From positions 8,052,001 to 8,116,000 of the forward strand of contig NZ_CP066356.1 of NCBI RefSeq assembly GCF_023278185.1: DNA of 64,000 bases, written 5' to 3'. A model generated the notes under the pieces. That model searched no databases. It was not told where the DNA came from and saw only the letters and a program-made list of their open reading frames with translations. Each line of letters starts with the position of its first letter. The first letter of the stretch is position 1. A program made the translations under genes and the position numbers. Origin of the DNA: Bradyrhizobium elkanii USDA 76. Lineage in GTDB: Bacteria; Pseudomonadota; Alphaproteobacteria; Rhizobiales; Xanthobacteraceae. Below are positions 45,644 to 60,800 of this stretch, in pieces.

Positions 45644-46837
45644 CAGGGGAATCGCATGTGGTGCGCATGCAAGTAGTTGCCAAATCGAAGGAAAGGGATT
45701 CTGAAGGCAGCTCCTGATCTGAAGGGAGCGGCCGATGCAACGATTTGCCGAGTGCTTTGAGGATTTGCCGGACCCGCGGGCCGACAACGCGCTGCATGAC
45801 CTGACCGAGATCTTGTTCATCGCGCTGATGGCGACGCTGTGTGGGGCGACGAGTTGCACGGATATGGCGCTGTTTGCCCGGATGAAGGCCTACCTTTGGC
45901 AGGATGTTCTGGTGCTCAGGAACGGCCTGCCGAGCCACGACACGTTCAGTCGGGTGTTCCGGATGCTCGACCCGAAGGCGTTTGAGGTCGCGTTCCGGCG
46001 TTTTATGAAGGATTTTGCGCAAGGCGCGAAGATCAAGCGGCCGCGCGGTGTGATCGCGCTCGACGGCAAAGCGTTGCGACGCGGCTACGAACGCGGCAGG
46101 AGCCACATGCCGCCGGTGATGGTGACCGCCTGGGCGGCGCAGACGCGCATGGCGCTTGCCAATGTGCTGGCGCCGAACAACAACGAAGTCGATGGCGCCC
46201 TGCAGTTGCTTGAGCTCCTGCAGCTCAAGGGCTGCGTAGTCACGGCCGATGCCCTGCATTGCCACCGCGCGATGGCCAAAGCGATCGTGGCACGGGGCGG
46301 TGACTACGTGCTGGCGGTGAAGGCGAACCAGCCCGCTCTGTTGGAGGATGCCAAAGCCGCAATCTGCGCCGTCAAACGCAAGGGCAAGACTTCGCTCACT
46401 ACCACCGATGCGGACCATGGACGCACCGACAAGCGTGTTGCTCTCGTTGCGCCGGCTCCCGGCATGGCCAAGAAGCACGACTTCCCGGGCCTCAAAGCCG
46501 TCGCCCGCATCACCAGCAAGCGTGGACAGGACGACACGGTCGAGCGCTACTTCCTGATGAGCCGCCCCTACAGCCGCAAAGACGTCCTGCGTATCGTCCG
46601 CGCTCATTGGGGCATCGAAAATAACCTGCACTGGCCGCTCGACGTCACCCTCGACGAGGACCTCGCCCGCAACCGCAAGGACAACGGGCCGGCCAACCTG
46701 GCCGTGCTCAGGCGCCTGGCCCTCAACGTCGCCCAAGCCCACCCGGACACGACAAGCTCCCTGCGCGGCAAGCTCAAACGCGCCGGATGGAACGATGCGT
46801 TCCTCTTCGAACTCCTCGGTCACATGCGATAGCCCTG
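45644..46837 (+). mobile_element. ISAs1-family insertion sequence with 10-base target duplication
   Basis: The 1194-base element has ends CAGGGGAATCGCATGTG (left) and, reverse-complemented at the right, CAGGGCTATCGCATGTG, matching at 15 of 17 bases. The 10-base direct repeat CCCTGGAGGG occurs at 45634-45643 and 46838-46847, as ISAs1 elements make. The duplication is perfect and the transposase intact, so the insertion is recent. The target is a CCCTCCCCTGGAGGG-type intergenic repeat. Confidence 0.95.
45735..46832 (+). CDS. ISAs1-family transposase
   Basis: A 365-residue intact DDE transposase. The N-terminal DUF4338/DDE_Tnp_1-associated part (FAECFEDLPDPRADNALHDL) precedes VIALDGKALRRGYERG with the first Asp, VVTADALHCHRAMAKAI with the second, and WGIENNLHWPLDVTLDED with the C-terminal Glu. 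Length matches the family. The stop lies inside the right inverted repeat. GAAGGGAGCGGCCG supplies the ribosome site. Confidence 0.95.
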   Translation: MQRFAECFEDLPDPRADNALHDLTEILFIALMATLCGATSCTDMALFARMKAYLWQDVLVLRNGLPSHDTFSRVFRMLDPKAFEVAFRRFMKDFAQGAKIKRPRGVIALDGKALRRGYERGRSHMPPVMVTAWAAQTRMALANVLAPNNNEVDGALQLLELLQLKGCVVTADALHCHRAMAKAIVARGGDYVLAVKANQPALLEDAKAAICAVKRKGKTSLTTTDADHGRTDKRVALVAPAPGMAKKHDFPGLKAVARITSKRGQDDTVERYFLMSRPYSRKDVLRIVRAHWGIENNLHWPLDVTLDEDLARNRKDNGPANLAVLRRLALNVAQAHPDTTSSLRGKLKRAGWNDAFLFELLGHMR

Positions 46838-49374: not shown

Positions 49375-49402
49375 TTGACCGTGACGGGCCGCCCGCTATA
49401 GT
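49375..49402 (+). promoter_or_regulatory. Sigma-70-type promoter of tRNA-Leu
   Basis: TTGACC at 49375-49380, a 16-base spacer, then TATAGT at 49397-49402. The expected transcription start is about 40 bases before the tRNA. This is the only strong consensus-like promoter directly upstream of the tRNA gene. Confidence 0.75.
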
Positions 49403-49450
49403 CCGCCGCGCTTCGCGACCCCGGCCTTCCCGGCCGGGACCATTGCGAAT

Positions 49451-49535
49451 GCCCCTGTGGCGGAACTGGTAGACGCGCTCGACTCAAAATCGAGTTCCGC
49501 AAGGAGTGCTGGTTCGATTCCGGCCAGGGGCACCA
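49451..49535 (+). tRNA. tRNA-Leu (anticodon CAA)
   Basis: An 85-base class II tRNA. The acceptor stem GCCCCTG (49451-49457) pairs with CAGGGGC (49525-49531), followed by A and an encoded CCA (49533-49535). The anticodon stem CTCGA/TCGAG encloses loop CTCAAAA, giving anticodon CAA. The T arm contains GGTTCGATTCC, and the variable arm is long, as leucine tRNAs have. It sits just before the accessory TOMM region and could have been an integration site. Confidence 0.98.
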
Positions 49536-49607
49536 TTCAGCGCGGCCGTAGCCGACAAGCCATCCGCACGAAGGCTCGTCCCGGCGTAGCCCGAAGGGCG
49601 AAGCCCA

Positions 49608-49629
49608 ATTCCGCCCCTGGGCGCCATTC
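49608..49629. other. Imperfect copy of the tRNA-Leu 3' end (possible attachment-site relic)
   Basis: ATTCCGCCCCTGGGCGCCATTC matches the tRNA end plus flank at 49517-49538 in 18 of 22 positions. Short direct repeats of a tRNA 3' end are what island integration leaves behind, but no integrase gene is visible and the match is imperfect. Confidence 0.35.
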
Positions 49630-49669
49630 GCGTGCGATCCAGGCCGTAAACATTCGAAAGACCTCCGCT

Positions 49670-51127
49670 CTAGCTAGAGGAGGCCGGTTTCCTGCCGCGC
49701 CCGAGCGCGAATTGACCGACCGGGCTCTCCACGTGGAATTCAAGCCCCGTCATTTTTGCGAACAGATCGATGTTGCAGGTGCCGATTGCGCAGCCACCAA
49801 GGCCCATGTCGGTCGCCGTCAGATAGAACGTCTGCATCAGGTTGCCGACGTCCTTCAGGATCAGCGAATATGCGATTGAGCTGTATTTCCAGGAGATCCG
49901 CCCAAAGCGCGCGGCGATCGTGATCAAGACCTGCGGTGGACCGGATGCGTCCATGGCAAACTCGGCCGCCGTAGAAAGCGCTTGGAGTTGTTGGGCGGAG
50001 GTGTCGATCGCGACAAGCGCGTGGCTGCCCGCGTCATAGTGGTAAAGTCCACGTGCAAGCTCCCCGCAGTTCAAGACCGCCAAGTATAGTTCCAGCTCGT
50101 ACGCGCCGCCTGCCGACGGATAGGGTCTTGCGCTGTAGGTGGCCTCGGGAACGCCGTCAAAATCTGCGCCGATCTTCCATTCCGACAGCACGCGGGCTGT
50201 CGTGTCGAGAAACTGCGCGAGCTCGGCGAGCGTGACCGGATGCTGGTCGTCAAAATCTCGTATTGAATGGCGTTCGCGCAACAGCTTCGCGAAGTGCGAG
50301 ACGGACCCCGACGTGGAGAATTTGCCGAGGTCGATCTTCTTGCCGGGCCAAGGCGGACGCACCGCGGGTAGCGGTGGAACGACGCCCGCATGGGTGAACG
50401 CGCCGCCAACTGGATTGGTGTGCCGGCCCTCCGTGCTCCTCGTATGAAACACCAGATCGTGGAAGTCCCAGAGAACGAGATTGCCGTCGCCTTCATTCAC
50501 CCGAAGGCCGTCGCCGTCTTTCGCATTGAGCTTGATCAGCATCTTGCTGTCGATCAGCAATCCGAGCAGATCGAGGTTCGCGGAGGCCGCATGGCGGCGA
50601 AGGTTACTGATCTTCTGAGGCCGCGACAGGGCAGCGAGGGTGGCAGCGATGGCGGGATCGAAAATCCGAAACAGCGCGCCGGCGCGCGGCGATTCCAACA
50701 CCATCTCGCTGCCGCGCCGGCGCAGATAGGCGAAGCGCGACAACACAATGGTATCACCGTTCCCCAGCTTTGCGCGTTGTGGCCAGTATTCGGCGACCTG
50801 CGGCTCGATGACCACGAGGTCTTGCTCGTCACGCGGAGAGTATAAGCGGTATTCGAGAAATCCATGCCCTGCCAGTCGCCGCACGAGGGCATGAACCTGC
50901 CTCGCGAGGACGCCTTTGCCCGCAAAGGAGGCGAGCGGCAGGCCGCTGGTGAGATGTCCCGCACGGTCGACCGCTGCTGCACTGAATTGTCCCAGATTGA
51001 TCGAGTAGCCGCCCAAGCCTGCAGCGATGCTTCCGTCCGCCTGCATGTGAAGGGAGCAACGACCGTTCAATCGGGCGACGATGACGGGTGCGATCTTCCT
51101 GAGCTTCGTTTTCCGGAAGTTGCGCAA
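49670..51127 (-). CDS. SagB/ThcOx-type FMN dehydrogenase of a TOMM cluster
   Basis: A 485-residue protein. The C-terminal half is a nitroreductase-like SagB domain. Its visible parts are LLRERHSIRDF (FMN phosphate site), YSARPYPSAGGAYELELYLA (diagnostic of SagB/ThcOx), and SIAYSLILKDVGNLMQTFYL then GLGGCAIGTC. SagB enzymes oxidise thiazolines or oxazolines to aromatic azoles. Residues 1-230 form an extra N-terminal region of the type that precedes some TOMM dehydrogenases. It begins with TTG, 11 bases after the YcaO gene stop, so the two are co-transcribed. Base composition is visibly less GC-rich than the flanking chromosome. Confidence 0.9.
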   Translation of the reverse strand: MRNFRKTKLRKIAPVIVARLNGRCSLHMQADGSIAAGLGGYSINLGQFSAAAVDRAGHLTSGLPLASFAGKGVLARQVHALVRRLAGHGFLEYRLYSPRDEQDLVVIEPQVAEYWPQRAKLGNGDTIVLSRFAYLRRRGSEMVLESPRAGALFRIFDPAIAATLAALSRPQKISNLRRHAASANLDLLGLLIDSKMLIKLNAKDGDGLRVNEGDGNLVLWDFHDLVFHTRSTEGRHTNPVGGAFTHAGVVPPLPAVRPPWPGKKIDLGKFSTSGSVSHFAKLLRERHSIRDFDDQHPVTLAELAQFLDTTARVLSEWKIGADFDGVPEATYSARPYPSAGGAYELELYLAVLNCGELARGLYHYDAGSHALVAIDTSAQQLQALSTAAEFAMDASGPPQVLITIAARFGRISWKYSSIAYSLILKDVGNLMQTFYLTATDMGLGGCAIGTCNIDLFAKMTGLEFHVESPVGQFALGRGRKPASSS

Positions 51128-51138
51128 CGAGCCAGCCT

Positions 51139-53385
51139 TCAGGTGTGCGGAAGGAATGGCGTGAGCTCGCTTTCCAGTCGCGGACGATTCAGCAATCCGA
51201 GCTTCATCGGAACATCGTAAAGTCGGCCGGGCGCGAAGCGGCGATAGAAATGTCGCAACCCCGGAACGAGCACTCTGACGACGGGCACCTGGACATCGGG
51301 CCGCGTCTGGTCGAGCACGAGGAAATCAAATCCCGCGCCGGTGGCAATCTCGATGCAGGCATTGACTTGGTCGCGCGCGTTGTCGTGAACCTTGAGGCTC
51401 GGCGCCGACGGCACGATCGGATTCTCGCTGGGGATCAGGAACGGATAATCGTCCAGTCGCAGCGGCGTGACACCGTCCAGCGTCGGCTTCTCGCCACTTC
51501 CGCCGCCCATCATGCCAATCGACATGAACTGGGTCAGCTCGGTGAGGGAACGCAGCAGGGCTATGCGGCGATCGAAATGCGAGCCGGAACCGAATTCGAT
51601 ATTTTCGTGCCCGTTCTGCGTCCAATGGATGATCGCCACGTAAGAGGGAATGCCGAGATCGCTGGTGATGTCGAGCACCCAAAGCCTGCGCCCCGCATCG
51701 GCAAGCTGGGCTTGCAGATCCCGCACATAGGGATCTTCGAATTGCGCGAGGTCGACTTCTGCACGTTGCAGCCGGTTGTACCACCAGATCGCGTAGGCGT
51801 CGCGTTCGACCAGTTCGAGGAAGCCTTGAACGATGGCTTCCTCCCGGGTGTTGCCGGCCGCGCATCCGTTGGAATCCGTGTGGAAGCCGCCATAGAAGAA
51901 GTACAAGAGGCCCGTTGGAAGATGTTTGAAACGCTTGTCCCGTAACGACCAGACCGGCGACCACTCCGTCTTGGTCGAGGGATCGAGCGGCTCAGGCACC
52001 AGATGTGAATCGTCCGGCTGCGAGGTATGTCTGTTTTGAAACTGCGCGTCGCTGAAAAGCTGTACTTCGTTGGGAAGAAGAGCGTCGCCGGGAGCGAAAT
52101 CGACAAAGCGGCGCTTCGTCCTGATCTCGTCGCCCTGGAAAATGCCCGAATAGCGCTCGATCGCCTCCATCAACGCGCTGGCCTCGCCCTGCTCGGCTGT
52201 GGAGCCCTTGCCGAAGCTGCCGCCGCTCAATCCGGATCTGAGCTGGTCGACGTTCCAGGCCGGCGCCGAGAAATTGTGGTAGGCGAAAAAATTCGTGTTC
52301 ATCGGCAGATCGGCCTCGATCCGCTCGAGCCGCGAGACGACGCCGGTCAGCGGACTGACGTGCTTGCGGAACCGTGCTACGGTGGCTCGCGACGTCACGG
52401 CGCGGTAACCGCCGCTGGTCATGACGAGCTTTCCGCCCTCTGCGATCTCGATCGGCGCTGCCGCCCGGCGCGGACTCTGCAGCTTCCTGCTGCCGCAGGT
52501 AGGACACTGCGGGCGTCGCGCGACGTAATGCTTGGCAATGACGGCACCGGTCAGGTCGAAGCTTGCGATGTGATCGCGCAGATCGGTACGAAATCCCGAG
52601 GCAATCGCTTTTGCAATTTCAACAGCAGCGAAGTGGATGCCGATCTGTCCGACGGCGTCGCCGACCAGGGGCGATACGGCGACCACCTGCGCCGCTCTGC
52701 GATCGAGAAATCCCTTGATCTCCCGATTGCGTATCATGCGATCGAACAGGCAAGTCCAGCAGGCGCTCTCGCCCGGCTTGAACACGGGTCCCACCAGCGG
52801 AAACACGCCGGACGGCTGCGCCAGCAGCCAGGGCGTCCCATCGCCAAAGCGCTTTCCGTTCAATTCGACGAGCCGCCGGTCAAGATAGTCGTTCGCCAGT
52901 GTGATCGTGAGCTTGGGCGACCGCTTGGTGATCCGAACACCGAGCTTGCTCAAGGCCGCGGCAAGTTCGTTGGCGCCTTTGACATCGATGGCTTCGACCC
53001 GCACGGGGCAATCGCGGAGATTCTGTTCTGCGACCTCGGGGGGGAGGCCGAGACTCGCCCAATATCCATCGACGGCGCTTGCGAACGCGTGCGGCGCGCC
53101 GCTTACGACATATCGGCGCTCTAGCAGCCGCCTGATCGCTTCCTCGATCTTGTCGGCGGGAAAATTCTTTGAGAGCTGCCGAACGATCTCTCGTGCAGCC
53201 TTACCATTTTTGCCGATCGCCGCGGCCACCGCACAATAGAGATCACCATGCAGGAAGAATTTGCGGTTCTCGGAGTAGAGGCAGACCACATCGGGAGGAA
53301 TCACATAAGCGGTAAAGTTCGGCGCGAATCGCAAAATGCCCTTGCGGCTCTGCCTCGCGGTGCGGCTCTTGCCATTGACTGTCAT
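51139..53385 (-). CDS. Fused E1-like/YcaO cyclodehydratase of a TOMM cluster
   Basis: A 748-residue fusion. Residues 1-330 are the E1/ThiF-like partner (TOMM leader-binding type) with two zinc-type Cys pairs, CWTCLF and CPTCGS. Residues about 360-748 are YcaO: SGGSFGKGSTAEQGEASALM then EAIERYSG (ATP/Mg binding), and GCAAGNTREEAIVQGFLELV with ERDAYAIWWYN. YcaO uses ATP to cyclise Cys or Ser/Thr side chains onto the backbone. The C-terminus, TPFLPHT, is only a partial match to the Pro-x-Pro-x-Pro tail usual in azoline-forming YcaO proteins. It lies between the precursor and the dehydrogenase on one strand. Confidence 0.93.
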   Translation of the reverse strand: MTVNGKSRTARQSRKGILRFAPNFTAYVIPPDVVCLYSENRKFFLHGDLYCAVAAAIGKNGKAAREIVRQLSKNFPADKIEEAIRRLLERRYVVSGAPHAFASAVDGYWASLGLPPEVAEQNLRDCPVRVEAIDVKGANELAAALSKLGVRITKRSPKLTITLANDYLDRRLVELNGKRFGDGTPWLLAQPSGVFPLVGPVFKPGESACWTCLFDRMIRNREIKGFLDRRAAQVVAVSPLVGDAVGQIGIHFAAVEIAKAIASGFRTDLRDHIASFDLTGAVIAKHYVARRPQCPTCGSRKLQSPRRAAAPIEIAEGGKLVMTSGGYRAVTSRATVARFRKHVSPLTGVVSRLERIEADLPMNTNFFAYHNFSAPAWNVDQLRSGLSGGSFGKGSTAEQGEASALMEAIERYSGIFQGDEIRTKRRFVDFAPGDALLPNEVQLFSDAQFQNRHTSQPDDSHLVPEPLDPSTKTEWSPVWSLRDKRFKHLPTGLLYFFYGGFHTDSNGCAAGNTREEAIVQGFLELVERDAYAIWWYNRLQRAEVDLAQFEDPYVRDLQAQLADAGRRLWVLDITSDLGIPSYVAIIHWTQNGHENIEFGSGSHFDRRIALLRSLTELTQFMSIGMMGGGSGEKPTLDGVTPLRLDDYPFLIPSENPIVPSAPSLKVHDNARDQVNACIEIATGAGFDFLVLDQTRPDVQVPVVRVLVPGLRHFYRRFAPGRLYDVPMKLGLLNRPRLESELTPFLPHT

Positions 53386-53560
53386 CGGGGCGGCACGCTG
53401 ATCCTGTTGCAGTCACTTCCGATCGCCGGAGCGCGGCAAACCATGGCATTGCGCGACTTGTGCGCCGCGTTCGGCCACCGGCATTCTGCGAGCAATTTGG
53501 ATCACACTCGCCCACCGTCGGCAAGCTGATCAGCCAGGCGCGGCGAATGTATAACGAAAG

Positions 53561-53597
53561 CAAAAAATTGGCCGGGTCGTTCGGGCGCCCGGCCAAT
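53561..53597 (-). terminator. Strong terminator/attenuator between TOMM precursor and enzymes
   Basis: On the minus strand ATTGGCCGGG pairs with CCCGGCCAAT (ten perfect pairs, 53597-53588 with 53576-53567), then runs into TTTTTTG. It lies 36 bases after the precursor stop and 175 bases before the cyclodehydratase ATG. Partial read-through would give much more precursor than enzyme. Confidence 0.88.
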
Positions 53598-53632
53598 GAA
53601 ATCGCGACGTGTCGACGCCCAGTCAGTGAGCA

Positions 53633-54106
53633 CTAGCACCAGCGGCAGCGGCCCCAGGATGCACAGCAGCCTGCGCATGAGACCAATGGCACGCCTACGC
53701 CGATCCAACCAACGCCGCAGCCGCCACATCCACCGCAACCGACACCGCAGCGGCAGCCTCTGCAGGCCCTGCATCCTCCGCAACCCCTGCAGCCTCCGCA
53801 AGCTCTGGCGCCTCCGCAGCCACGGCAACCACCGCATCCCCGCGCGAGCAGCACGCGGCCTCCGACGCTTTCATCGTCGATGAGATTGAGGTGGAAGGTG
53901 GCGAGACTGACGTCGGCGAGTTCTTCCTCACTGAGCGTCGTCATATGGCCCGGCGCGAAGCTCGGCTTGTGTTGAACGTCGCCGGTGGGCACGGCGGAGG
54001 CATATGCGCTGCCCGCCAGCGAAAAAGTCAGACCGGCTAATCCCAGCGCCGGTACCGCGGCATTGGTCGTTCGCTTCTTTCTCGAAGCTTGCTTCGCTCG
54101 CTGCAT
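53633..54106 (-). CDS. TOMM precursor peptide, Cys/Gly/Arg-rich core
   Basis: A 157-residue candidate substrate of the adjacent YcaO and SagB enzymes. Residues 1-12 are basic (QRAKQASRKKR), and 15-38 form a hydrophobic, signal-like stretch (AVPALGLAGLTFSLAGSAYA). The conserved-looking leader part TLSEEELADVSLATFHL follows. The core starts near LLARGCGGC and holds 18 Cys in CGGC, CRGC and CRAC units, then a GVGWIGVGVPLVSC linker and the end CCASWGRCRWC. GGGAGGAT before the ATG is an excellent ribosome site. The family is not one I recognise; a metal-binding Cys-rich protein is the main alternative, but the neighbours argue for a modified peptide. Confidence 0.88.
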   Translation of the reverse strand: MQRAKQASRKKRTTNAAVPALGLAGLTFSLAGSAYASAVPTGDVQHKPSFAPGHMTTLSEEELADVSLATFHLNLIDDESVGGRVLLARGCGGCRGCGGARACGGCRGCGGCRACRGCRCGVGCGGCGGCGVGWIGVGVPLVSCAGCCASWGRCRWC

Positions 54107-54351
54107 GGCCGCATCCTCCCAGTTTGGAAGAGGGACTTCCGAAGCACGATCTTACGCCGAGCGAACGAGGCAGACAAGAATTACGGTATACACAAAATGT
54201 AATAGAGCTCGTTCAGATTGCATTCATCTTCGTGAACGATATCGCGCGATTTGGTCGATTAAATCGAGAATCCGCGCCCGTGGAGCGGATTGCAACGGGT
54301 GCAACATGATGCAGTGCGCAATCGTCGGCCCGCTTGAACGGGGAAATTAGC
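54107..54351. other. A/T-rich divergent promoter region (TOMM operon and VOC gene)
   Basis: About 245 bases. The part near 54180-54270 (ACGGTATACACAAAATGTAA, GATTAAATCGAG) is clearly A/T-rich against the surrounding GC and should carry the precursor promoter on the minus strand. I could not assign boxes or an operator with confidence. Confidence 0.5.
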
Positions 54352-55221
54352 TTGGTCGATCAACTCGGACGCTTCGCTTGGTATGAGTTGCTGACGACGA
54401 ACATGTCGGCAGCAGCCGCATTTTATGGCAAGGTCATCGGCTGGGCGGTGGAAGATGCGTCCACTCCGGAATTCGCCTACACGCTGCTTACTGCAGGCGA
54501 CGCCCCGGCAGTTGGACTCATGCATCTCCCGGAAGAAGGGCTGCGATTGGGAGCGAGGCCGAGATGGGTCGGCTACATCGCCGTCGATGACGTGGATGCG
54601 AAAGCCGTGCAGATCCGCCGTCGTGGGGGCGCCATTCTGGTAACACCAACCGCCAGCAATATTGGCCGAATTTCGGTGGTCGCCGATCCGCAAGGAGCGA
54701 CGTTTGCACTGGTTTCCGGGCTGACATATGGCCAACGGCAGTCCAGCGGATTGGACGAGCCTGGACGCGTGGGCTGGCACGAGTTGCTGGCTGAAGACCG
54801 GAACAAGATTTTCCCGTTTTACGGCGAGCTTCTTGGCTGGCAGAAGGCTCACGCTGAAACCGGGCCGGCCGACCTGTACGAATTGTTTTCGGCGGCCGGC
54901 CAGACGATCGGCGGAATGCTCACCAAACTTCCGAGCGTATCGCAACCCTGCTGGCTCTATTACTTCAATGTCGACGACATCGGTGCGGCTGCCAAGCGCG
55001 TTGATGCTGGCGGGGGCCGGGTCCTCCAAGGTCCAATCGAGTTGCCCGACGGTTGCTGGATCTTGCGATGTGCCGATCCCCAAGGGGCTCTATTTGCGCT
55101 ACAGGGAGCCTGGGATCAGAAAGGCACTGAGCGACCCTCCGCCTCGGAACTCAATTGGTCCGCGAGGTGGGGTGATGTCGCTTCACAGGGCAAATTGATC
55201 CTTCGCAAGACGAAGCGATAG
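54352..55221 (+). CDS. Two-domain VOC (glyoxalase-fold) protein
   Basis: A 289-residue tandem VOC protein. The first unit is FAWYELLTTNMSAAAAFYGK to ADPQGATFALV; the second is VGWHELLAEDRNKIFPFYGE to CADPQGALFALQG. Each has the WHEL/WYEL opening with a possible metal His or Glu and the DPQGA ending. Relatives include glyoxalases, dioxygenases and drug-binding resistance proteins. The TTG at 54352 is favoured by GGGGAA six bases upstream; another TTG lies at 54334. It is divergent from the TOMM precursor, so a self-protection role is possible but unproven. Confidence 0.82.
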   Translation: MVDQLGRFAWYELLTTNMSAAAAFYGKVIGWAVEDASTPEFAYTLLTAGDAPAVGLMHLPEEGLRLGARPRWVGYIAVDDVDAKAVQIRRRGGAILVTPTASNIGRISVVADPQGATFALVSGLTYGQRQSSGLDEPGRVGWHELLAEDRNKIFPFYGELLGWQKAHAETGPADLYELFSAAGQTIGGMLTKLPSVSQPCWLYYFNVDDIGAAAKRVDAGGGRVLQGPIELPDGCWILRCADPQGALFALQGAWDQKGTERPSASELNWSARWGDVASQGKLILRKTKR

Positions 55222-57143: not shown

Positions 57144-59219
57144 TCAGGGACGACCGACGTGGAGCAACCGCCGGGCGTCGAGTTCCACGATCTTGAAGCC
57201 CTTGCTCGCCGCCACGCCGATCAGATGGGCCGTGCCTCCGGCGCCGTCGGGGTCGACGTCGCGGTTGTTGAGGGCAATGAGCGTGAGACTGCGCGCGCCT
57301 TCGGCAAGGGCGTTAAACAGCATCCATAGATTGTTGCGCTTCCAGATGTCGTAATCCTTCTTTTCGCGCAGCCAGCGCGGTAATTCGCTGGAATCGGCGA
57401 GGATACGCGGCGGGATGCTCTGGCAGAGCTGCTGATAACGCGTCACCCATTCCAGCCCGCCGCGATTGACCGATTCCTCCTGGAATTGTGCCTCCGGCAG
57501 GGCCAGGAAAAGCCGCGTCGGGACATTGAGCGTCTCGCAGACCTCGTGGAACAGGATATCGCCGCCGCAGGCGCCGCCTGCGATGCCGACCGCGACGCCG
57601 CCAGCCTCGCCGAGTTCGTTCTTCACCGCCTCCATGATCAACCGGCGCGCCTCCGCGACGGCCTCGGGCGTGGCAGGAAAGCGCGCTTCATTGCCGGGGC
57701 GACCAGGTGCGTCCAGCATGTGACCGGTGAACAGGATGACGCGCGCCGGCGTCGGCGGCGCTCCGTCCATCTGCGGCCCCATCTCGCGTAGCGCGGCGTC
57801 GGCGTTCGCCGACAGCACCGCCAGATCGCGACAGATCAGGACATTGCGCCGGACCGAATCCACTTCCAGCGGCCGCGCGTTGGCAAGCGCCTTCCGATAC
57901 GCGGCCCCGACCTGGGCCGGCCGGTCGGACGTCAGGAACAGCAGATCGGCGCGGCTGACATCCCTCCAGGTGTTGGGTTGCTCGCCGTCCCGAACCACCT
58001 TGTCGTCATTGCCGAGCGCAAGTTGCAGCGTGGCGGCGATGCGGCCGGCGCGGCGCTCGCTCGCCTTGAGATCGGCCAATGCCGCCTCGGTGTCGTCGAA
58101 GCTCTCGGCCCAGACATCCGGGAGCGCCTTGGCGAGGGTGATCTGGATCGTCAGCATCGCGAGCGCGTTGACCGCCGGATAGAAGCTGTCGAGATCCTCG
58201 GCGAAGCCGTCGAGATAGTGCTGAATGGAGTCCGCAAGCCTCGGCGAACGCAGCGCGGCGGTCCGCCGCGCGTCCGTCGCGGCGGCGGACCAGTCGTCGA
58301 TCCATCGTGTCTTGGCATTGCTTCCGAGCAGGGAATGGCCTTCCGCGCGATTGAATCGCCGCTCCGCCGCTTCCGCGGGCGTCTCGACGTGATCGGTCGG
58401 CGGCATGGTGCGGTCGAGGACGCGCTGGATCGCCTGCTCGGAACGGGTCAGGTAGTCGAGCTTTGCGCCGGGACCGACAGCCGATCCCGCCAGCTTCTGG
58501 TAGACCGTCCCGAGACGGTAATTGGCCTGAAGATCGACCGGATCGAGCTCGCGAAGTCCCTCAAAGGTCTCTCTCGCGCCGCCAAACGCCTTGATCTGGA
58601 ACTGCGCATCGCCGACAACCCGCAGCCCGCCGCTGCCCCATTCGAGGCCGCGCACTTCCTCCGCGAAGAGGCGCAGGTCGCCGGCACGCGCCGCCCGTCG
58701 TGCGACCGCGACGTCCTCCTGGAAATCAAATGGCACGACCATCAGGGCCGCGCGATCGTGCGGCACCAGGCGAGGCAACAATTGGAAGACCGGGCTATCC
58801 TTGATGGTGGAGGACAGCGTAGCCCTTAACGCCGCCGCAAAGCCCGGCAGCGCGGCGGCGGGATTCGCGGCATCATACGAGCCATAGCGATCGGTTTGCA
58901 GGTCGAAGGGATATTTGTCCTTCGTTCCCTCGGCCCGGATCAGCAGGGTGTGCTGATCCCGCAAGCCGTGGCGAATGCCAAGCTCGTAGAACACATTGGC
59001 GTTGTAGATCGAGACGTCGGCGATCACGAGATCCGAAAGCACCAGCAGCCGAAACATGTCTTCACGGATGTTGCCCTGCCGCGTGATCTCGCCGGTCGTG
59101 CGTCCCTCGATGCCTGCCTTCTGCAGCGCAGGAGCGATCAGCTCCCGTTCCACCCGATCAAAGTCGATGCCATCCTTCGTACCGAACGGTCGCACGATAA
59201 AGGCGCGCGTGGCTGCCAT
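57144..59219 (-). CDS. Three-part protein: deoxyribosyltransferase/TIR-like domain, TPR-like middle, SLOG-like C-terminus
   Basis: A 691-residue cytoplasmic protein. Residues 1-125 resemble nucleoside-deoxyribosyltransferase/TIR-like domains: FIVRPFGTKDGIDFDRVERE, SDLVIADVSIYNANVFYELG with a candidate catalytic Glu, and RHGLRDQHTLLIRAEG. Residues about 130-480 are helical repeats of the DUF4071/TPR kind. Residues about 500-691 contain FTGHMLDAPGRPG, GIAGGACGGDILFHEVCE and LALPEAQFQEESV, a SLOG-like nucleotide-binding Rossmann pattern. It lies 56 bases after the patatin gene on the same strand. Domain names are by pattern recognition; the combination suggests nucleotide-based immune signalling. 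Confidence 0.78.
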   Translation of the reverse strand: MAATRAFIVRPFGTKDGIDFDRVERELIAPALQKAGIEGRTTGEITRQGNIREDMFRLLVLSDLVIADVSIYNANVFYELGIRHGLRDQHTLLIRAEGTKDKYPFDLQTDRYGSYDAANPAAALPGFAAALRATLSSTIKDSPVFQLLPRLVPHDRAALMVVPFDFQEDVAVARRAARAGDLRLFAEEVRGLEWGSGGLRVVGDAQFQIKAFGGARETFEGLRELDPVDLQANYRLGTVYQKLAGSAVGPGAKLDYLTRSEQAIQRVLDRTMPPTDHVETPAEAAERRFNRAEGHSLLGSNAKTRWIDDWSAAATDARRTAALRSPRLADSIQHYLDGFAEDLDSFYPAVNALAMLTIQITLAKALPDVWAESFDDTEAALADLKASERRAGRIAATLQLALGNDDKVVRDGEQPNTWRDVSRADLLFLTSDRPAQVGAAYRKALANARPLEVDSVRRNVLICRDLAVLSANADAALREMGPQMDGAPPTPARVILFTGHMLDAPGRPGNEARFPATPEAVAEARRLIMEAVKNELGEAGGVAVGIAGGACGGDILFHEVCETLNVPTRLFLALPEAQFQEESVNRGGLEWVTRYQQLCQSIPPRILADSSELPRWLREKKDYDIWKRNNLWMLFNALAEGARSLTLIALNNRDVDPDGAGGTAHLIGVAASKGFKIVELDARRLLHVGRP

Positions 59220-59275
59220 GACTCATGTCCCCTGATGGGCGAAGCGTTGACGTGATGAGAAACCCTGTCCGCTCA

Positions 59276-60415
59276 TCACATGAGATCGAAGTCCGGCGGG
59301 AAGTGTTCCGACTTGACCTGCCGGGCCGCCGCCAGCTCCCCGATCCTGGCGAGCTCGTCCATGTTGTTCGGATCGTCCATCGCGGCGATCTTTGCGAGCA
59401 CCTCCGGCGTCCGCTCGATCGCGACCGTATCCTTCAACCAGGCAGATTCCAGCAACACGTTATAGCGCGCATAGGTCGCCAGTTGCGGTCCGCTCCGACC
59501 ATCGGTCGCCATGTCCTCTACCGCACGGTTGATCGTCCATGGCGTCAGGCAGTTGGTCAGCCATTGCAGCATGGCGTGATTGTGCTGCCCGCAATCGTCC
59601 ATCAGCGACTGCAGCGACCGCAGGCCCTGCTCGGCCGCAGGCATGCGGACGATCTCGTCGGTCGTGTAGGTCGACTTGAACACGCCGGTGCCGGCCGAGA
59701 TCAGCAGCAGATCGTCCTTGCCGGTTCGCCACTGGAAGCCGTGGCCCTGGAGCGCCGCGAGCATCAGCATTTGCAGCGCCGGATCGTTGAACGGGCTGAC
59801 CCCGCCGTCGACGAAAGCGCCGCTGACGGTGCTGCCGTCGCGCGCCGAGATCGTGATCTTCTGGGGACTGAAATAGGTCGGCGCCGCCGTGCTGGCGCGA
59901 ACCACCTCGGTCAGCCGCAACCCGCCGTCCTGACGGGCATATCGGCTGTCCGGATGGTTGTGCAGCGGCCACAGGCTGCCGGTATCGAGCCGCTTGGTCA
60001 TGATCATCAGGCCGGTGCGGATGCGATCGCTGCCGAGCGAGGTGTCGGCGCCGAGCTGTGCGTCGAGTGCGTGCTGCAAGGCATCCGACTTGAATTTCGG
60101 CGCCAGCAGCCCGCGCCGCCAGAACGAGCCCTGGAAGATGTCGGTGCCGATGCCGCGATAGAGCTGCTTCAACGCGTCGGCCGTCATTCCGCACGCCAGT
60201 CCGGCAGCGATGATCGATCCGGTCGAGGTGCCGCCGATCAGATCGAAATAATCGCAAAGCAGGAGATCGCTGTTGTCGAACCGCTTGCGCAACATCGCCT
60301 CGATGGCGCTGACATATTCGAGCGTCAGGATGCCGCGGATGCCGCCGCCATCGAGCGCCAGTATCCGCTTCGGCCCGAGTGCACGATCGAGATGCTGCTG
60401 CTTGGTCTTCGGCAT
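59276..60415 (-). CDS. Patatin-like phospholipase
   Basis: A 379-residue patatin. The oxyanion motif ILALDGGGIRGILTLEYV is followed by the nucleophile elbow IGGTSTGSIIAAGLA (Ser) and the catalytic Asp in GAFVDGGVSPFNDPAL. These three give a complete Ser-Asp dyad. The ATG at 60415 is preceded by GCGGGGGCAG; an upstream frame adds non-family residues. Bacterial patatins serve as membrane-destroying effectors in several defence systems (for example CapV in CBASS). It is first in an operon with the deoxyribosyltransferase/TPR/SLOG-like gene and divergent from a TIR gene. Confidence 0.9.
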   Translation of the reverse strand: MPKTKQQHLDRALGPKRILALDGGGIRGILTLEYVSAIEAMLRKRFDNSDLLLCDYFDLIGGTSTGSIIAAGLACGMTADALKQLYRGIGTDIFQGSFWRRGLLAPKFKSDALQHALDAQLGADTSLGSDRIRTGLMIMTKRLDTGSLWPLHNHPDSRYARQDGGLRLTEVVRASTAAPTYFSPQKITISARDGSTVSGAFVDGGVSPFNDPALQMLMLAALQGHGFQWRTGKDDLLLISAGTGVFKSTYTTDEIVRMPAAEQGLRSLQSLMDDCGQHNHAMLQWLTNCLTPWTINRAVEDMATDGRSGPQLATYARYNVLLESAWLKDTVAIERTPEVLAKIAAMDDPNNMDELARIGELAAARQVKSEHFPPDFDLM

Positions 60416-60800
60416 AACTGCCCCCGCGGAACGATGACTTTCGCTGATTTCGAGACGGCCGATCAATCCCGGCCGAGGCCTCAATTGGCCGCGCGTTCAA
60501 GCGCGAACGGCACCATCTTCAAAATGAACCGACGCGCCGGGGTCGGCACATCGGCTTGCTGACAATTCATTCGTTCAATGCCGGAGCACGCTCGCGCGCC
60601 GGTTCCGGCAAGCATCTTGCACGTCATACACCCTTAGGTATAGTGAGATATTTCACTGGCGAGCGGATTTTCTTTTTCGCGCCTGGCGATTGCAAGCTGC
60701 AAAGACGCGCTATCATTCACGCCGCGGCGAGAGATGCAGCTGCGCAATTCGGCCGACCCGGCCAACCGTCGCATAAAGTTCATGCAGATCGGGTTTTGCC
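60416..60800. other. Divergent promoter region between patatin and TIR genes
   Basis: About 385 bases. The stretch 60630-60690 (CACCCTTAGGTATAGTGAGA, TATTTCACTGG, TTTTCTTTTTCGCG) is A/T-rich and the best place for promoters. A plus-strand frame crosses the region without recognisable protein sequence. Confidence 0.5.

Follow-up and report, generated by a model that had tools for sequence, protein, structure and literature searches.

In klebsazolicin and phazolicin biosynthesis the two halves of the cyclodehydratase, C and D, are separate proteins. Phazolicin, from Rhizobium sp. Pop5, bears an azole at every third residue, and the relevant passages of PMC7136475 place an exporter gene in both the klebsazolicin and the phazolicin cluster. 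The enzymes of the heterocycloanthracins (HCA, sonorensin) are described in part of PMC4603692 as missing about 100 N-terminal residues and requiring an F protein. The locus considered here lies in a 64,000-nucleotide stretch of the 9.5-Mb Bradyrhizobium elkanii USDA 76 genome (contig NZ_CP066356.1, positions 8,052,001 to 8,116,000; hereafter the window), and from its gene content it quite likely represents a four-gene cassette of the thiazole/oxazole-modified microcin (TOMM) type, akin to those for linear azol(in)e-containing peptides (LAP), for a thiazole/oxazole-modified peptide. A first-pass annotation had described three minus-strand genes, for a Cys-rich peptide, a fused E1-like/YcaO enzyme and a dehydrogenase; all three were confirmed, coordinates included, but the unit had to be corrected to four genes by the addition of a divergently transcribed gene for a VOC protein. 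The fused E1-like (C) and YcaO (D) cyclodehydratase of 748 aa, together with its relatives, is termed C-D in this text. The cassette is real, selected and widespread, and it constitutes a family that is new, though its kind is known; its product is presumably new. The genes carry the database labels of hypothetical proteins and VOC family proteins. No description of the family was recognised in the titles and abstract openings of the literature, a scope that left aside supplementary lists (those of PMC4603692 and PMC7136475, for example) and most subscription papers, and words with 'rhizob' in them do not occur in the main text of PMC4603692.

Family assignments were made by Pfam and NCBIfam profile searches with curated cut-offs. 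The C-D protein matched the Pfam YcaO family (PF02624, 305.3 bits) and the NCBIfam leader-peptide-binding model TIGR03882 (146.9 bits against a cut-off of 36.9), these scores placing in one protein both the azoline-forming YcaO and the E1-like leader-binding components expected of a TOMM/LAP cluster. The dehydrogenase matched ThcOx (PF22767) and Nitroreductase (PF00881) in Pfam and the SagB model TIGR03605 in NCBIfam (182.4 bits against 78.4), in agreement with its earlier assignment. By sequence, the solved structures nearest to C-D were LynD (E 1.5e-141), followed by TruD and MusD; residues 17-743 aligned on LynD 6-770, and since the alignment begins at residue 17, the enzyme retains a leader-binding N-terminus of its own. 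Those nearest to the dehydrogenase were 8pz5 (E 3.2e-56) and CyaGox (E 3.3e-56). In an alignment of the window protein with twelve relatives 62-72% identical to it, the two CxxC pairs which the first-pass annotation had taken for zinc ligands (C209/C212 and C294/C297) were invariant in all 13 sequences, as was P746 near the C-terminus. All four cassette genes gave dN/dS values below 0.4, namely 0.13-0.15 for C-D and 0.17-0.20 for the VOC gene against four close orthologues and 0.23 for SagB, the last from two orthologues only.

The proposal that these enzymes act on the peptide found strong support in genomics. A presence survey of 100 genomes (60 Bradyrhizobium and 40 others) detected the precursor in 27 and strong C-D matches, of at least 1183 bits, in the same 27, while none of the 73 genomes without C-D gave a precursor match; weaker C-D matches in 25 further genomes, at most 107.5 bits, are taken as other YcaO proteins. 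All 27 cassette genomes fall among the Bradyrhizobium genomes, which makes the family common in that genus (27 of the 60 sampled). A family-level search matched the precursor in 25 of 296 genomes, from 11 of the 47 genera sampled. A profile scan of named genomes with C-D yielded 141 relatives, the best 80 of which, every one at least 63% identical to the window protein, form an 80-locus set in which the precursor was called by a strict pattern and then by inspection for looser forms. An adjacent precursor with leader and Cys-rich core, as expected of a TOMM cluster, was found upstream of C-D at 76 of the 80 loci, 70 carrying the conserved leader stretch in its strict pattern and six in looser forms. 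At the other four (L094, L148, L163 and L167) a contig end cuts off the upstream DNA 135-471 bp from C-D, and the precursor is thus present at all 76 loci where that DNA extends far enough. Enzyme homologues without an adjacent peptide gene had been named beforehand as the finding that would speak against the proposal, and there was no exception of this sort among the 80; since the loci were found through the enzyme, are the best of 141 and are at least 63% identical, the result bears on one family.

A second set of 67 loci, overlapping the first partly in genomes, comprised stretches around precursor matches (47 from the 100-genome search and 20 of 30 places from the 296-genome search). C-D was present in 43 of these, and SagB in all 43. 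Six genes that flank the window cassette were recovered at none of the 147 loci, where the cassette genes served as a positive control and were found, and the linkage of the cassette therefore goes beyond mere synteny. There was no further conserved gene: other clusters of open reading frames (ORFs) occurred in at most nine of 47 loci, at variable distances, and look like generic ABC transporter parts.

While the profile searches upheld both enzymes above curated cut-offs, they left the peptide unplaced, the window precursor having no Pfam or NCBIfam match at E <=0.1; nor was there an NCBIfam match at E <=1 when it was searched together with nine relatives, P0019 included, ten precursors in all; a solved-structure search with residues 1-109 returned weak matches only (best E 0.51). 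The window core contains 18 Cys, 2 Ser and no Thr in 68 residues, and its leader is devoid of Cys. Across 77 cassette precursors (76 from the 80-locus set and the window's own) there is no Cys ahead of the core and there are 12-23 inside it, the cores together holding 1254 Cys against 127 Ser and Thr; 75 end in SWGxC..C, and 72 have an AxA inside residues 31-42. In the 70 strict-pattern precursors the spacing between cysteines is three residues in 630 of 1079 cases, and Gly directly precedes 765 cysteines. A mixed set of 60 precursors including detached copies contained five with leader Cys, namely L062, whose start codon is doubtful, and L064-L067, with one Cys each. Among four close orthologues all 18 core Cys are kept, and dN/dS is 0.05-0.08 for the core and 0.28-0.36 for the leader. 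Strong purifying selection acts on the core, and a leader that evolves faster than a near-frozen core matches expectation for a functional product. The conserved leader stretch is proposed as the recognition motif for C-D. The LSEEEL within it is presumably similar to the sequence by which heterocyclases recognise cyanobactin precursors.

The precursor leader appears to open like a signal peptide, which is unusual for ribosomally synthesised and post-translationally modified peptides (RiPPs). A basic start, a hydrophobic stretch and an AxA were jointly present in 67 of 70 precursors, as against 5 of 239 other ORFs called mechanically, with thresholds chosen after the precursors had been inspected. 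The basic start is long and the hydrophobicity moderate, which would also be compatible with another route such as Tat. Peptidases of the S8 and C39 families lie far off: of six genomic matches to C39-type exporters, not one is on the cassette contig within 500 kb, and both matches to S8 (PatA/PatG-type subtilisin) proteases are more than 500 kb from the cassette, so that every such peptidase is either beyond that distance or on the other contig.

The first-pass annotation had stated that no immunity gene of known type was adjacent, and in this it overlooked the VOC-fold gene, whose protective role is itself a candidate one. The protein has two glyoxalase-type domains, as expected of the two-domain VOC superfamily. 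The gene occurs at 76 of the 80 loci, the exceptions (L094, L144, L148 and L163) being on contigs of 3.1-5.9 kb, and at 42 of the 43 C-D-bearing loci of the 67-locus set, the exception (L079) being at a contig end; it is divergent and upstream at 68 of the 76 loci and convergent and downstream at eight. Among 36 genomes of the same genus, VOC matches at E <=3.1e-94 occurred in exactly the 14 that bear the cassette. Structure searches were made with a second predicted model, built from more diverse rows and of good quality, the first having had a pLDDT of 52.6. None of the 50 matches listed in either search had a chain titled 'bleomycin resistance', which does not disfavour that kinship, and the entry titles of the Rv0577-like two-domain VOC proteins and of AbxF give no pointer to a TOMM cluster. 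The chance that the VOC protein shields the producer by binding the azole peptide within the cytoplasm is put slightly below even. A somewhat lesser chance is given to a tailoring enzyme that would further alter the azole peptide, self-protection then being achieved by export alone or not being needed.

More than one precursor match was found in 10 of the 27 cassette genomes; in G019 two of three matches are parts of one gene and in G001 the second is cut by a contig end, and the window's own genome has a single precursor. Twenty-four fetched stretches carried a precursor hit or pattern and no C-D. A contig end cut three of them (L032, L050 and L077), and in the other 21 the precursor stands apart from C-D within the fetched DNA. 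Some detached precursors are near-identical units of about 0.6-1 kb, present in multiple copies at L064-L067 and L029/L030. The type seen at L064-L067 keeps the leader, with 4-5 Cys in its core and a tail rich in Pro and Lys. The L077 (G120:C6) core terminates in Cys-Ser repeats (CSCSCSCSCCCCWC), which sets it apart from the Gly-Cys type. At L035 a detached precursor is paired with a VOC gene whose product is 63-64% identical to the VOC proteins of L132 and L152 but 58% to that of its own genome, and the pair may therefore be a cassette remnant. Of the 27 cassette genomes, as many as 10 probably have extra precursors, encoded elsewhere, that the same enzymes serve.

We infer azole formation on the precursor from the enzyme families, and the following course may be envisaged. 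The N-terminal domain of C-D would grip the leader stretch LSEEELADVSLATF, and the YcaO domain, with ATP, would convert many core cysteines (there are 12-23, for the most part three residues apart and after Gly) to thiazolines, which the FMN dehydrogenase would oxidise to thiazoles. The signal-peptide-like start would then direct the modified peptide into a general route of export, a step towards which we lean with some reserve. As a whole, the picture is of a new azole-peptide family whose poly-thiazole mini-protein would arise in the cytoplasm from a precursor with a cleavable export signal, leave by general secretion without a dedicated pump, and be neutralised within the producing cell by a VOC-fold binding protein dedicated to it, with one enzyme pair serving dispersed, duplicating precursor genes of varied cores. 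This picture is offered tentatively, and we put its chance at about one third.

Several observations weigh against the reading of the locus as a four-gene azole-peptide cassette. The hydrophobic stretch of the precursor is merely moderately hydrophobic, and C-D exceeds the NCBIfam cut-off of TIGR03604 by less than one bit (219.9 against 219.25). The 80 and 67 loci contain close relatives and repeated genomes and are therefore not independent events. Two detached precursor matches in G026 each hold one in-frame TGA inside the matched range, and the VOC match of G019 carries one in-frame stop. VOC homologues (39 and 42% identity) occur in cassette-less genomes of the same order (G082 and G076), and at L179, which has precursor, C-D (56% identical) and SagB, no VOC gene was found in 18 kb, none of six neighbouring proteins scanned matching a glyoxalase family; the VOC gene is thus not universal at greater distance. 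VOC-fold proteins are, moreover, functionally diverse, and AbxF, the second-best structure match, is titled a biosynthetic enzyme.

The signal-like N-terminus and the many cysteines would also suit an exported, metal-binding Cys-rich mini-protein like the bufferins, with thiols mostly free and few residues cyclised. PMC12452194 describes Sec signals as a rarity in bacterial RiPPs and a typical trait of MNIO substrates that bear Cys, the Sec signal of a RiPP having been demonstrated in its natural host for bufferins only, and the distance of the S8 and C39 peptidases, none of which is closer than 500 kb on the cassette contig, fits as well. However, the cassette enzymes are of azole-forming families and not MNIO/DUF2063, no gene beyond the four is conserved, a Pfam scan of ten window proteins found neither an MNIO enzyme nor a partner protein, and the absence of Cys before the core in the 77 cassette precursors is as expected of cyclodehydratase substrates. 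A bufferin-like product is thus unlikely. That the peptide merely happens to adjoin the enzymes is scarcely credible, given their occurrence in the same 27 of 100 genomes and the upstream precursor at 76 of 76 testable loci with flanks unlike those of the window.

Kinship with two described peptide groups was weighed as well. An HCA cluster is suggested by the HCA-type UniRef name of the relative P0019, by the Gly-rich Cxx repeats, which resemble HCA cores as given in parts of PMC7136475, and by the statement in PMC4603692 that most B. cereus HCA precursors are likewise encoded apart from their enzymes. Against this, the ten precursors searched did not match TIGR03601, the cassette C domain is full-length, and the compared flanks hold no conserved fifth gene, an F protein not having been sought genome-wide; on these grounds HCA membership was rejected and is considered very improbable. 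Strict membership of the cyanobactins was rejected for lack of nearby proteases, although the kinship of the enzymes stands; short cores between protease recognition sequences were not seen by eye in the precursors inspected.

The features are collected in Table 1. The TTG start of the dehydrogenase sits 11 bp past the C-D stop. The precursor and VOC genes diverge from a 227-bp stretch that is presumed to be their shared promoter region; a sigma-70 consensus scan of 49400-54500 returned no promoter site.

Table 1. Features of the cassette, in window coordinates.
Feature	Position	Strand	Basis
Precursor peptide gene, Cys-rich, 157 aa, ATG	53633..54106	-	ORF; homologues in 27/100 genomes
Signal-peptide-like N-terminus, precursor residues 1-38: basic start, hydrophobic stretch, AxA	53993..54106	-	Feature comparison
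Leader stretch, precursor residues 58-72, LSEEELADVSLATFH, putative cyclodehydratase recognition motif	53891..53935	-	Conservation across loci
Core, precursor residues ~89-157, 18 Cys, Gly-Cys repeats, C-terminal CCASWGRCRWC	53636..53842	-	Composition, dN/dS
Fused E1-like/YcaO cyclodehydratase (C-D), 748 aa, ATG, two CxxC pairs	51139..53385	-	Pfam, NCBIfam, LynD alignment
SagB/ThcOx-type dehydrogenase, 485 aa, TTG as listed	49670..51127	-	Pfam, NCBIfam, structure-sequence matches
Two-domain VOC (glyoxalase/bleomycin-resistance fold) protein, 295 aa, TTG as listed; candidate self-protection/tailoring	54334..55221	+	Family and structure searches, conservation
227-bp intergenic region, divergent precursor/VOC genes, presumed shared promoter region	54107..54333	.	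Layout

A tRNA-Leu (CAA) lies at 49451-49535, 134 bp past the end of the SagB gene; a tRNA was present in 11 of the 67 fetched stretches, none of them for Leu. Near the cassette, at 57144-60484 on the minus strand, a TPR-S/TIR-like protein (691 aa) stands next to a patatin phospholipase (402 aa), forming a defence-type pair; the phospholipase falls under the cut-off of the CBASS-lipase model and matches PADLOC phospholipase effectors. An ORF at 45735-46832 on the plus strand, about 3 kb from the cassette end, resembles an insertion sequence transposase.

The named relatives nearest to the window proteins are from Bradyrhizobium, and the record titles of the 80-locus set are mostly of this genus, together with metagenome-assembled genomes labelled Xanthobacteraceae, Beijerinckiaceae, Methylocapsa and Methylocystaceae, among others. 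One locus (L113) titled Frankia sp. RB7 has a cassette with C-D 85% identical to that of the window, perhaps from a mislabelled or contaminated assembly. At E <=1e-60, matches were found in 7 of 289 genomes of a class sample and 6 of 299 of a phylum sample, the window's own genome being counted in both; nine further loci from these samples were examined. L179, mentioned above, still has the precursor type and a SagB 49% identical to that of the window. At the other eight (C-D 31-41% identical), filtering for length and number of cysteines revealed no such peptide within 4 kb. Among these distant loci, a SagB relative was not seen at L174-L178 or L181 and was present at L180 and L182 (30-32%). 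Near position 6740 of L175, beside a LynD-like C-D of 40% identity, is a small NHLP-like precursor ending in CCCW, perhaps of another TOMM type.

If correct, the reading put forward here would provide a testable case of an azole RiPP exported by means of a signal peptide, a candidate for a new kind of immunity to azole peptides, and a natural substrate library for one LynD-like enzyme pair. Phazolicin is a rhizobial azole peptide already known, from passages of PMC7136475, to act on related rhizobia, and a role for the cassette product in competition among rhizobia is therefore plausible. With phazolicin, klebsazolicin and other LAPs the cassette has the azole-forming enzymes in common, but its C-D is fused, it has no conserved exporter, and its leader looks like a signal peptide. 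The bufferins likewise have a signal-like N-terminus on a Cys-rich precursor (passages of PMC12452194); they are modified by MNIO enzymes and partner proteins, in contrast to the YcaO and SagB families of the cassette. With the cyanobactin systems (LynD, TruD, also MusD; CyaGox/ThcOx) it shares a fused, full-length C-D and a ThcOx-type oxidase. While cyanobactins have PatA/PatG-type S8 proteases, none of which lies near the cassette, and precursors with short cores, the cassette encodes one long Cys-rich core, has hosts among the Alphaproteobacteria, and adds a VOC gene.
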